The notes: generated by a model not told the origin, from the letters alone. A stretch of DNA of 37,504 nt from Methanoregula sp. (GCA_026394595.1 JAPKXX010000102.1:1-37504); one strand, 5' to 3'; shown: positions 32,455-37,504, counted from the stretch's first letter. Program-made: numbers and translations.

Positions 32455-32526
32455 GCCGCCGTGGCTTAGCGGCATAGCGGCTGATTCGTAATCAGCAGGT
32501 CGAGGGTTCAAATCCCTCCGGCGGCT
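32455..32526 (+). tRNA. tRNA-Thr(CGT)
   Basis: Acceptor GCCGCCG/CGGCGGC, anticodon arm GCTGA-TTCGTAA-TCAGC, T-arm GAGGG-TTCAAAT-CCCTC. Confidence 0.95.
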
Positions 32527-32613
32527 TCCTTCGCGCAGGTTGAAATCCCTGTAAAAACCGTTTCTCAGGATAACCTTTTCCCTAACCTCGGTAACCGGGG
32601 TGCCGGGACGACG

Positions 32614-33834
32614 ATGCGCACACTACAGGCACCTAACCGGCACTGCCGGCCGTTTCATAACGCAAAGAGTGTATACGCCGAACATTCCATCGATCATGCC
32701 ATCCAGGCCGGCCAGCTTACCGCCGATGATGCCCGGCTGATCCGGGACTTTATTGCGGAGATCAAGGTTACCCGGGGCATCGGGGTCTCTCGGGCCAACA
32801 AACTCACCTACATCCTGGTGTCGTGGCGGCAGTACATCGGGCCGTTCCGGACGAACACCGTGGCCGACCTCTACCGGGGGATCGAGGCCCTGCGGGAGGC
32901 GCGGCACGGCGATATGGACATACCCTATAAGCAGAACACCTTGAAAGATCACCTAACCCTGCTCAAGCGGTTCTCCCGCTGGCTGAGGGCGAACGGATAC
33001 TCGTCCGTGCAGGAAGACAAGATTGAGGGGATCAAGGCTCCCCGAGCGGACCGGATGACCAAGACCGCCGGCCAGATGCTCACGGAAGACGAGGTCCGGG
33101 CCATGATCGACGCGTGCCAGACGTCCCGGGACAGGGCGATTATTGCGACGTTATATGAGGGCGGTTTCAGGGTTCAGGAATTAGGCCGGCTCACCTGGGC
33201 GCAGGTAAAATTCGACGATTACGGCACGGTCATCAACGTCGACGAGAAGACCGGGGCCCCGCGATACATCCGGCTCGTGACGGCGACCCAGTACCTCATC
33301 CAGTGGAAGAACGATTTTCCCTTCCCGGTCACGCCGGACGCCCTGGTCTTTGTATCCAACCGGCGGCTGCCGGTCCAATATGCCGCCATCGCCGTGCAGC
33401 TCAAAAAAATCGCTCGCCGGACGGGTATCCGAAAAAAAGTTACACCGCACTTGTTCAGGCACTCCCGCGTCACCGAGATGATCCGGCAGGGATACAGTGA
33501 GTCAATCGTCAAGAAGACGATGTGGGGCAATTTAGACACGCTGATGTTCTCGAGCTACCTTCACCTGGTCGACAACGACACCGATAACGAGGTCCTCGAA
33601 AAGCACGGTATCCGGCGACCGGAGGAGCACCGGTCGGTCGCAATGGAGATCCGGCAGTGCGCTAACTGCAACACCGTCAACCCGCCGACATTCGCGTTCT
33701 GTTCGACATGTGGGGAGCCGTTGACCGAAGAGGCACGGTTGAGCGTGGAGCGGCTGAGAAGAGATATCGAGAAGTTGCCGGAATACAAGATGATCCTGGG
33801 TCTGGCACGCCAGAAACTTGTTGCCGGCACCTAA
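32614..33834 (+). CDS. Tyrosine recombinase/integrase with C-terminal zinc ribbon
   Basis: R box LYEGGFRVQELGRLTW, HLFRHSRVTEM (HxxR), Tyr in SSYLHLVD; CANCNTVNPPTFAFCSTCGEPL tail; starts 88 bp after tRNA-Thr. Confidence 0.93.
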   Translation: MRTLQAPNRHCRPFHNAKSVYAEHSIDHAIQAGQLTADDARLIRDFIAEIKVTRGIGVSRANKLTYILVSWRQYIGPFRTNTVADLYRGIEALREARHGDMDIPYKQNTLKDHLTLLKRFSRWLRANGYSSVQEDKIEGIKAPRADRMTKTAGQMLTEDEVRAMIDACQTSRDRAIIATLYEGGFRVQELGRLTWAQVKFDDYGTVINVDEKTGAPRYIRLVTATQYLIQWKNDFPFPVTPDALVFVSNRRLPVQYAAIAVQLKKIARRTGIRKKVTPHLFRHSRVTEMIRQGYSESIVKKTMWGNLDTLMFSSYLHLVDNDTDNEVLEKHGIRRPEEHRSVAMEIRQCANCNTVNPPTFAFCSTCGEPLTEEARLSVERLRRDIEKLPEYKMILGLARQKLVAGT

Positions 33835-34916
33835 CCTTTTTTCTCTTCTCCGTTGTCAGTCTTTTTAAAGACAGTTTTTCGCGCATGTTCGAGGGATAGC
33901 GGCCCCATCGGCAGGATATCTCCTGTTAGTGAATAAACAGGAGATCTGGCATCCAATGACTTGATGATGTCATTATACCACTTGCCCATGTCCTGTGCAG
34001 CCGCCGCCAATGATGCCGTATCCTTATAGTGCAGACGTTGGACAATTGCTTTGTATTTTTCTCCGATATCGTTGAAAAACGGTGGAACCTGACCATCGTT
34101 CATCCGGGTCGCATCGGCGCACCGAGCAAGGTTCTGCATCATGGTAAATGACAGGATATAGTTTATGGCCGCGAGTTTCATATCGAGAGATTTTTGGATC
34201 ATCTCCTTCCTGACCCGGGAGACCTCTCCCGGCAGGGTGTCTGCTTCAACCCCATACCGGTACTCAAGGAGCACACAGGTGAGAAACAGATCATAGATAA
34301 TACAGTTTCTCGTCAGCCATTTAAGAAGGGCATTGTCAATGCCCGGTGTATTTACCATAGGGAGGGAAGGCCCCGGGATCTCGCCAAGGTTTGCGTTTTG
34401 ATGAGCGTTGATAGTGCCCCGGAGATACCATTCAAACATCAGCCGGGATGTTTTCAGCATCTTTTTTACATCTTCAAGAAATTCTTTATCAGCCCCATAT
34501 TCCGGCAAATGTATATCAATGATGAGATCCGTTAGCCAAGGGGATGTCTGAAAATCCTGGCGGATCGATTCATACTTTTTATCATCGTAAATATGGCAGA
34601 TTGTTTCAGGATCCCGACAGATCCGATACCCCGGCCGTGACTCAGCAATATACTCAATGTAATTCCATGTCGATTCGAGTTTCTTAATCTGACGATCAAC
34701 GTTTGAATATTTGTCCGTTCCTTTCTCTTTGTAACCGCATTCATCTCCAATCTGACTTTCGGTAAGCACTTCGTGTTTCAGAAGTGCGGAGATAATTTCA
34801 GTATAGATCTCAAAATGCTTTTTTTTGACCTTTTCGGAGGGCGCGCCTGCCGAATCCACCTCAATTTGGCCTGCATTAGGGTTAACAGGCAGGGTGGGAT
34901 TACCGTTGTTTGTCAT
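33831..34916 (-). CDS. Uncharacterised protein with a possible N-terminal winged-helix-like region
   Basis: 361 aa; IYTEIISALLKHEVLTESQIGDECGYKEKGTDKYSNVDRQIKKLESTWNYIEYIAESRPGYRICRD resembles a wHTH; remainder helical, unknown. Confidence 0.7.
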   Translation of the reverse strand: MTNNGNPTLPVNPNAGQIEVDSAGAPSEKVKKKHFEIYTEIISALLKHEVLTESQIGDECGYKEKGTDKYSNVDRQIKKLESTWNYIEYIAESRPGYRICRDPETICHIYDDKKYESIRQDFQTSPWLTDLIIDIHLPEYGADKEFLEDVKKMLKTSRLMFEWYLRGTINAHQNANLGEIPGPSLPMVNTPGIDNALLKWLTRNCIIYDLFLTCVLLEYRYGVEADTLPGEVSRVRKEMIQKSLDMKLAAINYILSFTMMQNLARCADATRMNDGQVPPFFNDIGEKYKAIVQRLHYKDTASLAAAAQDMGKWYNDIIKSLDARSPVYSLTGDILPMGPLSLEHARKTVFKKTDNGEEKKG

Positions 34917-34938
34917 GCGAACATCACCAGGTTGAATA

Positions 34939-35045
34939 TGTTTAGTCTAGCAATATAATAACGAACACATTTTATTTAAATCTGTTTAGTACAAAAAACA
35001 GAGTTTTTGGAATTCTGTTTAGAGAAAACGGCTATAACGAACGCA
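34939..35045. promoter_or_regulatory. Divergent control region with repeated operator-like motifs
   Basis: TGTTTAG at 34939, 34983 and 35016; TCTGTTT/AAACAGA/TCTGTTT at 34981/34996/35014; ATAACGAACrCA at 34958 and 35034. Confidence 0.6.
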
Positions 35046-35093
35046 ATTCGAAAATAACTGTTAAATTGCCTTTATTTATCCAAATGAACCAAT

Positions 35094-35285
35094 GTGCTCC
35101 AGGGATTGTATTTGGATAAGAGCATTCCGCGAAGGAAAGTAAGCCGGGACCAATTGGAACGCCTTCCCGAAATACACCGGATGATTGCGGAGCAATACAT
35201 CCACGACGGCCGGTGGGACCTTATCGAAACCACACCCCCTTCTGCCGGTGGCAGAAAATCATCCAAGCGAGCCAGGGGGAAGTAG
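35094..35285 (+). CDS. Small uncharacterised ORF (GTG start)
   Basis: MLQGLYLDKSIPRRKVSRDQLERLPEIHRMIAEQYIHDGRWDLIETTPPSAGGRKSSKRARGK. Confidence 0.5.
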   Translation: MLQGLYLDKSIPRRKVSRDQLERLPEIHRMIAEQYIHDGRWDLIETTPPSAGGRKSSKRARGK

Positions 35286-35515
35286 GTACGTCTACAGCAC
35301 TGCGTGGATTCGCATTTTCAGCAAGAGAAACACTTGCAGCACTTAAACAACGGTTCGGCAGTTCGGAATTTTATTTCCGGCAGGCTCTTGACGAATGCCA
35401 TATCGATCCGAAAGCGTTTGCGAAACTTCGCGCTGACGGTATTGTCGTGAAACTTGACAGTCATTGGCCTTCACGCTGGAGAATTGCCAGCCAGTATGTT
35501 GCGACAACACCCTAA
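35213..35515 (+). CDS. Small uncharacterised ORF, possible HTH-like (start uncertain)
   Basis: FAFSARETLAALKQRFGSSEFYFRQALDECHIDPKAFAKLRADGIVVKLDSHWPSRWRIASQYVATTP. Confidence 0.5.
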   Translation: MGPYRNHTPFCRWQKIIQASQGEVGTSTALRGFAFSARETLAALKQRFGSSEFYFRQALDECHIDPKAFAKLRADGIVVKLDSHWPSRWRIASQYVATTP

Positions 35516-35550
35516 TCAACACTCCCCCAGCTCCATAAGAGGTGAACCTT

Positions 35551-36099
35551 ATGGTTGAAAACCTTAACAACGATTCGATTACACTTCGGTGTAAACCGTT
35601 GGACCCGAAAGATCCAACCATGTTGAGCTGTGAGATAATTCCGAATCCCGTCCTCACAAACAAAGGACGGGTTCCGGATGCATCTTTGAAGACATCGCTC
35701 CCTGACCAACCCGGGGCAGACGCAGCAAAACCGTCCTCTGATGGTCCCAGCGATGGCGAACACGGGGAGTACGAAACCGTGAACGTACGCAGGATTCAAA
35801 TCGATGGACAGGATTTCTTTAAGGTTCTTGACCCCAAGGGTAACCCTAGTTCGGGGGTTGACGAAATTCCTGTCGTTCAAAAGGGACCGTCTGACCTTAA
35901 AGATACGAAGGACCGGTTCCGTCGTCTAAAGAAGTGCAATGATCAACGATGTTCCGTATCCAGACCATTTGCAGAAAACCGGGATATCCCGATCAAAAGG
36001 GATACCACGGTGGAAGAGGGAGGGAAGACATGTACACAGCCAGGAAGGCATACTCCTGTCCGTGCAAGTCAAACAGACCAGACCAGAGAGGGGACATAA
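35551..36099 (+). CDS. Uncharacterised ORF of the integrated element
   Basis: 182 aa from ATG 35551, hydrophilic, no recognised family. Confidence 0.55.
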   Translation: MVENLNNDSITLRCKPLDPKDPTMLSCEIIPNPVLTNKGRVPDASLKTSLPDQPGADAAKPSSDGPSDGEHGEYETVNVRRIQIDGQDFFKVLDPKGNPSSGVDEIPVVQKGPSDLKDTKDRFRRLKKCNDQRCSVSRPFAENRDIPIKRDTTVEEGGKTCTQPGRHTPVRASQTDQTREGT

Positions 36100-36114
36100 A
36101 ATGTCCCTCTTTTC
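36086..36114 (+). terminator. Hairpin + T-tract terminator-like element
   Basis: AGAGGGGACAT-AAA-ATGTCCCTCT followed by TTTT; stop codon of 35551-36099 lies in the loop. Confidence 0.5.
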
Positions 36115-36132
36115 CCTAGGGAGTGTGTGATA

Positions 36133-36459
36133 ATGTCGGAAGTAACAATCAGAACCCTGGAATCGTGGGTGGGTCGGATCGTAGGATTCAGAACCGTATC
36201 CGGACGTGAAGATCCGAGTCTTTCCCGTGTAGTTTTTCTCTTGGGAGAGATACGGACAAAGAAGGATGTGCGCGACGTGTCTACTGTCATTGCCAGTCCC
36301 CCAAGGGAGCGATGCAAAATTGCAGCGTCCGAGTGTAGATCGCGATATATCGATTTCCATGCAGATTGTCGTACGATTGCAGTATCGATTACTACAGTAG
36401 ATTGCGATATAGAATGTAATTTGCAAAACCACGTTTGGATTTCGGGAGGCCGACTATGA
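36133..36459 (+). CDS. Uncharacterised ORF of the integrated element
   Basis: MSEVTIRTLESWVGRIVGFRTVSG...; ends with ATGA overlap to the next gene. Confidence 0.5.
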   Translation: MSEVTIRTLESWVGRIVGFRTVSGREDPSLSRVVFLLGEIRTKKDVRDVSTVIASPPRERCKIAASECRSRYIDFHADCRTIAVSITTVDCDIECNLQNHVWISGGRL

Positions 36460-36836
36460 AACGAAGTGAGTATCCGTCACAAAAAAATTATCGGGAAAAT
36501 AATCCTTCTGTATCGTTTCGACTGAAGATAGAAGACAAGGCACGGCTTGATGCAATCATCAAGGCAACTGGCAAACCCCTCTCACAGTGGATGACTGATT
36601 TTATTCATTATAAAATTGATCCCAATGAGGAAATTTCGGAACTGGTAGAAAGAATCGACACGCTTGAAGAATATATTAACGAATCGGACACTGGAGAGCA
36701 CTTCACCGTTCCATGTTCTGTTTGTGGAAAGCCCATGTATTTTTCATCCAAACATTCTAACTGGCAGACAGAGACTTACCCAAAATTGATAGAGGCATTT
36801 GGGAAAAGTCGTCATAAAGAATGCAAGCCCAAATGA
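36456..36836 (+). CDS. Ribbon-helix-helix-like protein with C-terminal zinc-finger-like motif
   Basis: SVSFRLKIEDKARLDAIIKATGKPLSQWMTDFIHYKI; CSVCGKPMYF...SRHKEC. Confidence 0.7.
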   Translation: MKRSEYPSQKNYRENNPSVSFRLKIEDKARLDAIIKATGKPLSQWMTDFIHYKIDPNEEISELVERIDTLEEYINESDTGEHFTVPCSVCGKPMYFSSKHSNWQTETYPKLIEAFGKSRHKECKPK

Positions 36837-36946
36837 GATCCATCACTATCAACAATAACTCTCGATGGGGATAGTGGTTCGGATCTCTCCCTCGCATTTC
36901 CCCATGATTATGGCATAATGCAAACGGGGAGAAATCTTTTCCTACC

Positions 36947-37504
36947 TGTAGAGTGCCACAATTAATGTCCGTTTTGTTGACAGAGTTTTTGTCCGCTTTT
37001 TAGATATTTTCTGTTTTTATTGAAATTGATTTCGTTATGATAAACTGATGCAGGAGTCAGCCAGTTTAGGATCTCCTGCTTGCGCCAGTTGTTATATTGC
37101 TGGTCGAAGTTCCAGAGTTCTCTCCTGAAAAGACTTAAAGAGCGGAACTCCTTGAGGGCGATGAGTTCCCGATAGAGCGTCTTGTGATAGCGTTCGATCT
37201 TGCCGCGACCACGCGGGTGATATGGCCGGCCGAAGATCAGTTTGATGCCATGTTTTTGAGATTCAGCTTTGAACGCTTTGGAGACGAACTGTTTTCCATT
37301 ATCGACATAGATCTCTCCGGGGATTTGTCCATTACGGAGTGCCCATTGTAAGGCATTGATCGCTGAGGCAGCATCTTTGTGCAGGTAGACCTTGCTTTTC
37401 ACGCGATAGCGTGAACAATCATCGGTAAACCCGGTGACGTAGACTTTGCCGATGCCTCGGATGCGGAACTGGAATGTATCGCCCTGCCACATGCTGTCGA
37501 CATG
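36947..37504. mobile_element. IS481-like insertion sequence, truncated by the window edge
   Basis: Transposase ORF plus subterminal repeats TGTCCGTTTT (36966) and TGTCCGCTTTT (36990); exact end not determined. Confidence 0.65.
36962..37504 (-). CDS. DDE-type (rve) transposase, IS481-like, partial
   Basis: GFTDDCSRYRVKSKVY, VDNGKQFVSKAF, GRPYHPRGRGKIERYHKTL; frame open to 37504. Confidence 0.88.
   Translation of the reverse strand, partial: HVDSMWQGDTFQFRIRGIGKVYVTGFTDDCSRYRVKSKVYLHKDAASAINALQWALRNGQIPGEIYVDNGKQFVSKAFKAESQKHGIKLIFGRPYHPRGRGKIERYHKTLYRELIALKEFRSLSLFRRELWNFDQQYNNWRKQEILNWLTPASVYHNEINFNKNRKYLKSGQKLCQQNGH

Follow-up and report, generated by a model that had tools for sequence, protein, structure and literature searches.

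A probable mobile element in tRNA-Thr of a Methanoregula-like archaeon has inverted T-loop-like sites around its attachment core

Why integrases prefer tRNA genes is an old question, and the usual answer is the symmetry of the tRNA stems. A tRNA-Thr(CGT) gene followed by a tyrosine integrase in a Methanoregula-like archaeon raises that question at a single locus: is an element integrated here, where does it end, and which sequence does its integrase read? We analysed 37,504 nucleotides (the window), the whole of contig C112 from a genome of 1.58 Mb in 121 contigs that is 83.5% complete; the closest named relative found was the Methanoregula MAG STB_131 (L008, G214). The evidence base for the element is this one draft genome, as sequence. 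In all likelihood, a mobile element is integrated in the 3' end of tRNA-Thr(CGT), with the ends and arms described below (Table 1). In kind it is an ordinary element, a tRNA-targeted integrative element or genomic island.

The preliminary description had placed beside tRNA-Thr(CGT) an intact tyrosine integrase with an R..HxxR..Y set and a zinc ribbon, and all of this was confirmed. The integrase contains a Phage_integrase domain (E = 4e-21), its frame is open, and its catalytic set is complete (R185, H279xxR282 in the form HLFR, and Y315). A C-terminal C4 zinc ribbon occupies residues 349–370; such a ribbon was found in 33 of the 34 family members examined, indicating that it belongs to the integrase family. 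The gene is unsplit, which sets it apart from the SSV-type (suicidal) integrases.

A genome search with the 21-nt tRNA 3' segment first proposed, allowing three mismatches, returned the original copy, two other tRNAs and nothing else. It missed the right end because the common stretch is 15 bp, comprising the final 13 nt of the tRNA and 2 nt beyond. We located the right end through the genes that lie downstream of tRNA-Thr(CGT) in relatives, tracing these to contigs of the element's own genome. Genomes of the same genus keep the DUF3467–tRNA-Thr(CGT) block with other genes directly after it. In five of them (G001, G002, G003, G004 and G005) the element is absent and a methyltransferase-like gene follows the tRNA, preceded in two of the five by a gene for a small membrane protein (PF06695). 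The own-genome homologue of the methyltransferase-like gene is on contig C57, where a copy of the core falls exactly at the synteny break; beyond it come the PF06695 and methyltransferase-like genes, as in the empty-site relatives. Read towards the latter gene, C57 runs GGATTTCAACC-agcgaccgggctg-CCCTCCGGCGGCTTC-ttggtattc. By our estimate, chance alone would place any particular 15-mer in a genome of this kind about 0.003 times. Joined at the core, the flanks aligned on both sides with the empty sites of G001 and G004 (against G001, 82% over 309 bp on the left and 69% over 540 bp on the right), indicating that the element resumes at position 7949 of C57 and continues to 4568. Together with the window from 32514 to the contig end, this gives an extent of at least 8.3 kb; we infer continuity from attL to attR across the interior between these two separate contigs.

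The integrated-element reading had been staked on empty sites in relatives and on a tRNA-derived repeat downstream. Both exist, the former in G001–G005 and the latter as 15 bp on C57, and that reading survives. Of the proposal of an integrated 'virus, plasmid or ICE', integration stands, with both ends and empty sites in hand, whereas the 8.3 kb seen do not decide the kind of element: this portion contains no capsid, terminase or spike genes, no relaxase or type IV secretion genes, and no replication gene.

Table 1 Features of the element in the window and on contig C57 (locus L081)
Feature	Location	Strand	Remark
tRNA-Thr(CGT), target gene	32455..32526	+	ARAGORN; block conserved in relatives up to tRNA end
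T-loop 9-mer of tRNA-Thr(CGT), GTTCAAATC	32506..32514	+	Resembles the element's arm sites
Attachment core, attL, CCCTCCGGCGGCTTC	32514..32528	+	Exact second copy on C57
P' arm, GGTTGAAATCC	32538..32548	+	T-loop-like; 33 nt beyond the T-loop of the tRNA
Tyrosine integrase, 406 aa	32614..33834	+	Start 87 nt past tRNA-Thr(CGT)
Convergent protein, 361 aa	33831..34916	-	No relatives found
Cassette gene, 63 aa	35094..35285	+	54% identity to L008 frame
Small basic cassette protein	35213..35515	+	48% identity to L008
Cassette protein, 185 aa	35542..36099	+	Relatives in L008 (G214), G211, G221
Cassette protein, 110 aa	36127..36459	+	55% identity to G221 neighbour, same order
Protein with CxxC, 126 aa	36456..36836	+	64% identity to G221
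Partial IS481-family insertion sequence	36947..37504	-	Interrupts element; contig ends inside it
attR core copy, 15 bp, C57	L081:4568-4582	-	Exact match to CCCTCCGGCGGCTTC
P arm, GGATTTCAACC, C57	L081:4596-4606		Exact inverted partner of GGTTGAAATCC; 13 nt before core

When the two ends were rejoined as attP, the core lay between two inverted sites, P and P', 48 bp apart from start to start. These form an exact 11-bp inverted repeat (11/11), and each occurs once in the window and C57 combined. Their centre of symmetry falls inside the core, suggesting that strand exchange probably takes place there, in the 3' strand of the T-stem and acceptor. By our count the tRNA's T-loop is about 9 bp from this centre, and P and P' are about 24 bp out; the core-binding site of a tyrosine recombinase is usually about 9 bp from the exchange centre.

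We then aligned the tRNA-to-integrase spacers of related loci. Twelve nucleotides past the tRNA, at a distance of 33 nt from its T-loop, was a T-loop-like 9-mer with the consensus GTTCRAWTC, usually followed by pyrimidines and in every case placed between the tRNA and the integrase start. Site scores averaged 7.3 of 9 at 20 integrase-bearing tRNA loci versus 3.4 of 9 at 54 tRNAs without an integrase of this family, against a background of about 3 (Mann–Whitney P = 1.6e-9, the related loci not being fully independent). Scores of at least 7 were reached by 17 of the 20 versus 5 of the 54, and the site spanned eight tRNA types (Thr, Glu, Ser, Cys, Leu, Gly, Gln and Met). A good P' site was missing at three of the 20 integrase loci, and four of the five high-scoring integrase-less tRNAs were tRNA-Thr; T-loop-like sites were commoner at integrase-less tRNA-Thr loci than at other integrase-less tRNAs (P = 0.011). 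After the tRNA-Thr(CGT) of G011 (L066) we found a very similar attL spacer with the P' site and no integrase behind it, either a relic or an element whose integrase is elsewhere. A tRNA-Gly(GCC) in the element's own genome (L120, C40:6856-6927) had a T-loop-like site scoring 8/9 at the arm position with no integrase nearby, and is a possible emptied or decayed insertion site.

Arm and core together were also used as a rule for finding right ends: downstream of each tRNA/integrase pair, we sought the reverse complement of its own arm and then its own core, at varied gaps. With gaps of 9–17, the best match fell at 14 nt (in the register of the search) in eight loci, including the one described here. 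With gaps of 5–23, seven of the eight stayed at 14 and one (G068) shifted to another gap. Control arms (direct, reversed or complemented) gave lower scores in nearly all loci and no common gap. For the other elements, ranging from 5.6 to 60 kb, the rule yielded four firm right ends (G004, 30.1 kb; G019, 22.8 kb; G021, 5.9 kb; G002, 5.6 kb), two weaker ones with scores near the shuffle maximum (G071, 24.6 kb; G032, 60.0 kb) and one that was ambiguous (G068, 39.7 kb); the arm-plus-core search found none for four further loci (G081, L008, L070 and L077). The smallest of these elements, downstream of tRNA-Thr(TGT) in G002 (L079, G002:C4:310000-329000), has an integrase of the same family and an attR. 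Its genes include one for a rolling-circle Rep protein (REP_ORF2-G2P, E = 7e-10), and it is apparently an integrated small plasmid; the integrase family is thus used by at least one plasmid-like element in the integrated state. The rule exposes the far ends of archaeal islands whose 12–15-bp repeats escape ordinary searches, as was the case for the window.

The view of this stretch as the best candidate for a new system is borne out by the attachment-site design but not by the cargo. The cargo is, as had been said, largely undescribed, and the five short plus-strand ORFs are all real genes, given their conservation in L008, G211 and G221. Three ORFs are shared with STB_131 and three with G221, in the same order. 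The true start of the gene at 35213..35515 is probably near 35285. The 126-aa protein, whose start overlaps the preceding stop (ATGA), has a weak ribbon-helix-helix-like N terminus, which may suggest a role of the cassette in regulation or maintenance. The convergent 361-aa protein matched no family in Pfam, NCBIfam or PADLOC, 100 related genomes yielded no relative, and neither it nor the 185-aa protein had a match in IMG/VR scans. A helix-turn-helix hint in the 361-aa protein reached only E = 0.18, and its AlphaFold model from the single sequence (pLDDT 43) had an uninformative fold; that it is a regulator of the element is our guess. Cassette and 361-aa protein together are probably regulation or maintenance genes.

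In G221, both the tyrosine recombinase and the convergent protein next to the 185/110/126-aa cassette are different ones, indicating that the layout of integrase, convergent regulator-like protein and small-gene cassette recurs with unrelated parts. The G221 cassette (L153:2034-10181, G221:C2) is located between a long CRISPR-like repeat array, itself preceded by a Cas2 gene, and the unrelated recombinase beside tRNA-Leu. We rejected a run of apparent small viral genes there (L153:2842-8791), as these 'ORFs' are translations of the repeat array, which is evidently CRISPR. On the element side of C57 are an HNH endonuclease, a protein of the uncharacterised family phrog_30545 (E = 2e-36) and two proteins without a family. 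The phrog_30545 protein (177 aa; L081:5149-5682, minus strand) has 41% identity to one annotated as hypothetical in Erwinia phage pEa_SNUABM_54, whose genome is 273 kb.

The IS481-like transposase proved to be of the IS481 family and is incomplete, running off the contig end from an outer IS end at 36947. Contig C103 overlaps the window end by 141 bp inside the IS481, yet no target duplication surrounds the IS (CTACC versus ATTAG); C103 has neither a right end nor a syntenic flank, and was excluded from the element. A second integrase family is encoded on C103 with a convergent winged-helix-like protein (L007, 6442-8465), the two having 44% and 68% identity to the G221 pair.

In the most likely account, the integrase recombined the 15-bp core (from the T-stem to the tRNA end, plus two bases) common to the chromosome and the element circle. 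Integration restored the tRNA at attL, with its 3' end re-supplied by the element, and left the 15-bp copy at attR on C57. As a proposed mechanism, the P and P' arms in attP would be bound by the integrase, and in attB the genuine T-loop would present it with the same sequence. From these sequences we infer that the integrase may bind the arms and that the element may still be able to move. A wider and more tentative suggestion, which we consider less likely than not, is that the zinc-ribbon integrase family, which is widespread, archaeal and of the Methanomicrobiales, reads the universal T-loop, both in attB and, in attP, through two inverted copies that mimic it. An integrase contacting the T-loop sequence in both places would explain how one family uses many tRNAs.

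Mobility is where a rival account comes closest. It is quite possible, at a little under an even chance, that the element integrated long ago, was broken by IS481 and is now immobile: an IS481 copy lies inside it, the contig breaks there, and closely related genomes do not have the element. Against such a dead remnant, the integrase frame is open and its catalytic set complete, the two core copies are identical and the arms match 11/11. The last two also speak against a reading in which the window end and C57 are not parts of one element, through either two different elements or an assembly error, which we consider very improbable. Although these are separate contigs, and it is C103 rather than C57 that overlaps the window end, the inverted arms show the geometry of other elements and empty-site synteny holds right at the core; the C103 link itself has no supporting target duplication.

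The T-loop-like sites could have other origins or other readers. Binding by another element protein, such as a regulator or directionality factor, or control of the integrase promoter would fit the constant position of P' ahead of the integrase and the putative regulators encoded nearby, but the sites go with the integrase family, whereas the remaining genes vary between elements, and we regard this reading as rather unlikely. That the sites are fossils of the tRNA 3' part, remaining from previous insertions into that tRNA, could account for their excess at the same place in some integrase-less tRNA-Thr loci. Such fossils would hardly be expected to keep one fixed distance across elements in the eight tRNA types, to resemble the T-loop but not the acceptor stem next to it, or to have an inverted partner beyond the core, making this improbable. 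The element's site copies the least-varying sequence of the tRNA, at a fixed geometry, in elements of eight tRNA gene kinds. If the T-loop reading is true, the same enzyme design would move between tRNA genes by changing the short core only, and target choice would be modular. The mirror-image T-loop-like copies at both ends suggest how this integrase family may find its targets.

Short att cores (8–14 bp) and tRNA targeting are already known in archaea (PMC8371274). The attachment-site design with T-loop-like arms is apparently undescribed so far: we found no description of such arms or of the zinc-ribbon integrase family in the literature searched, an absence that is not proof, the SNJ2 integrase's own description being outside its coverage. 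Among the nearest named viral integrases are those of Geoglobus acetivorans pleomorphic virus 1 and pleomorphic virus ThalV2 (BK065156, BK065158), with 25–30% identity over 70–88% of the protein. These viruses carry virion genes, and a search upstream of their integrases found no T-loop-like inverted arms; nor were such arms found upstream of the integrase in pleolipovirus and vir524 regions. The classical (unsplit) archaeal integrases of pNOB8 type, found in plasmids and proviruses, have R..YxxR..Y and att sites of 40–50 bp (Badel et al. 2021, PMC8371274). Like them, the element has an undivided integrase gene next to a tRNA that is restored at attL, and a tRNA-derived repeat bounds the island; it differs in HxxR (HLFR), the 15-bp core, the zinc ribbon and the T-loop-like arms. 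SNJ2-type integrases of pleolipoviruses are described as confined to Halobacteria, with orf2/orf3 helpers in an operon (PMC8371274). They share with the element a very short core (13–14 bp) in a tRNA gene and an unsplit integrase, whereas the element's next gene is convergent and unrelated, a weak distinction as some SNJ2-like operons also lack helpers; the separation follows the published description rather than a tree. In the lambda-type attP, extra element-side sites flank a 15-bp core (PMC8371274). The element shares the 15-bp core with flanking sites on the element side, but has no known accessory-protein sites and instead a single inverted site on each side, about 24 bp from the centre and T-loop-like.
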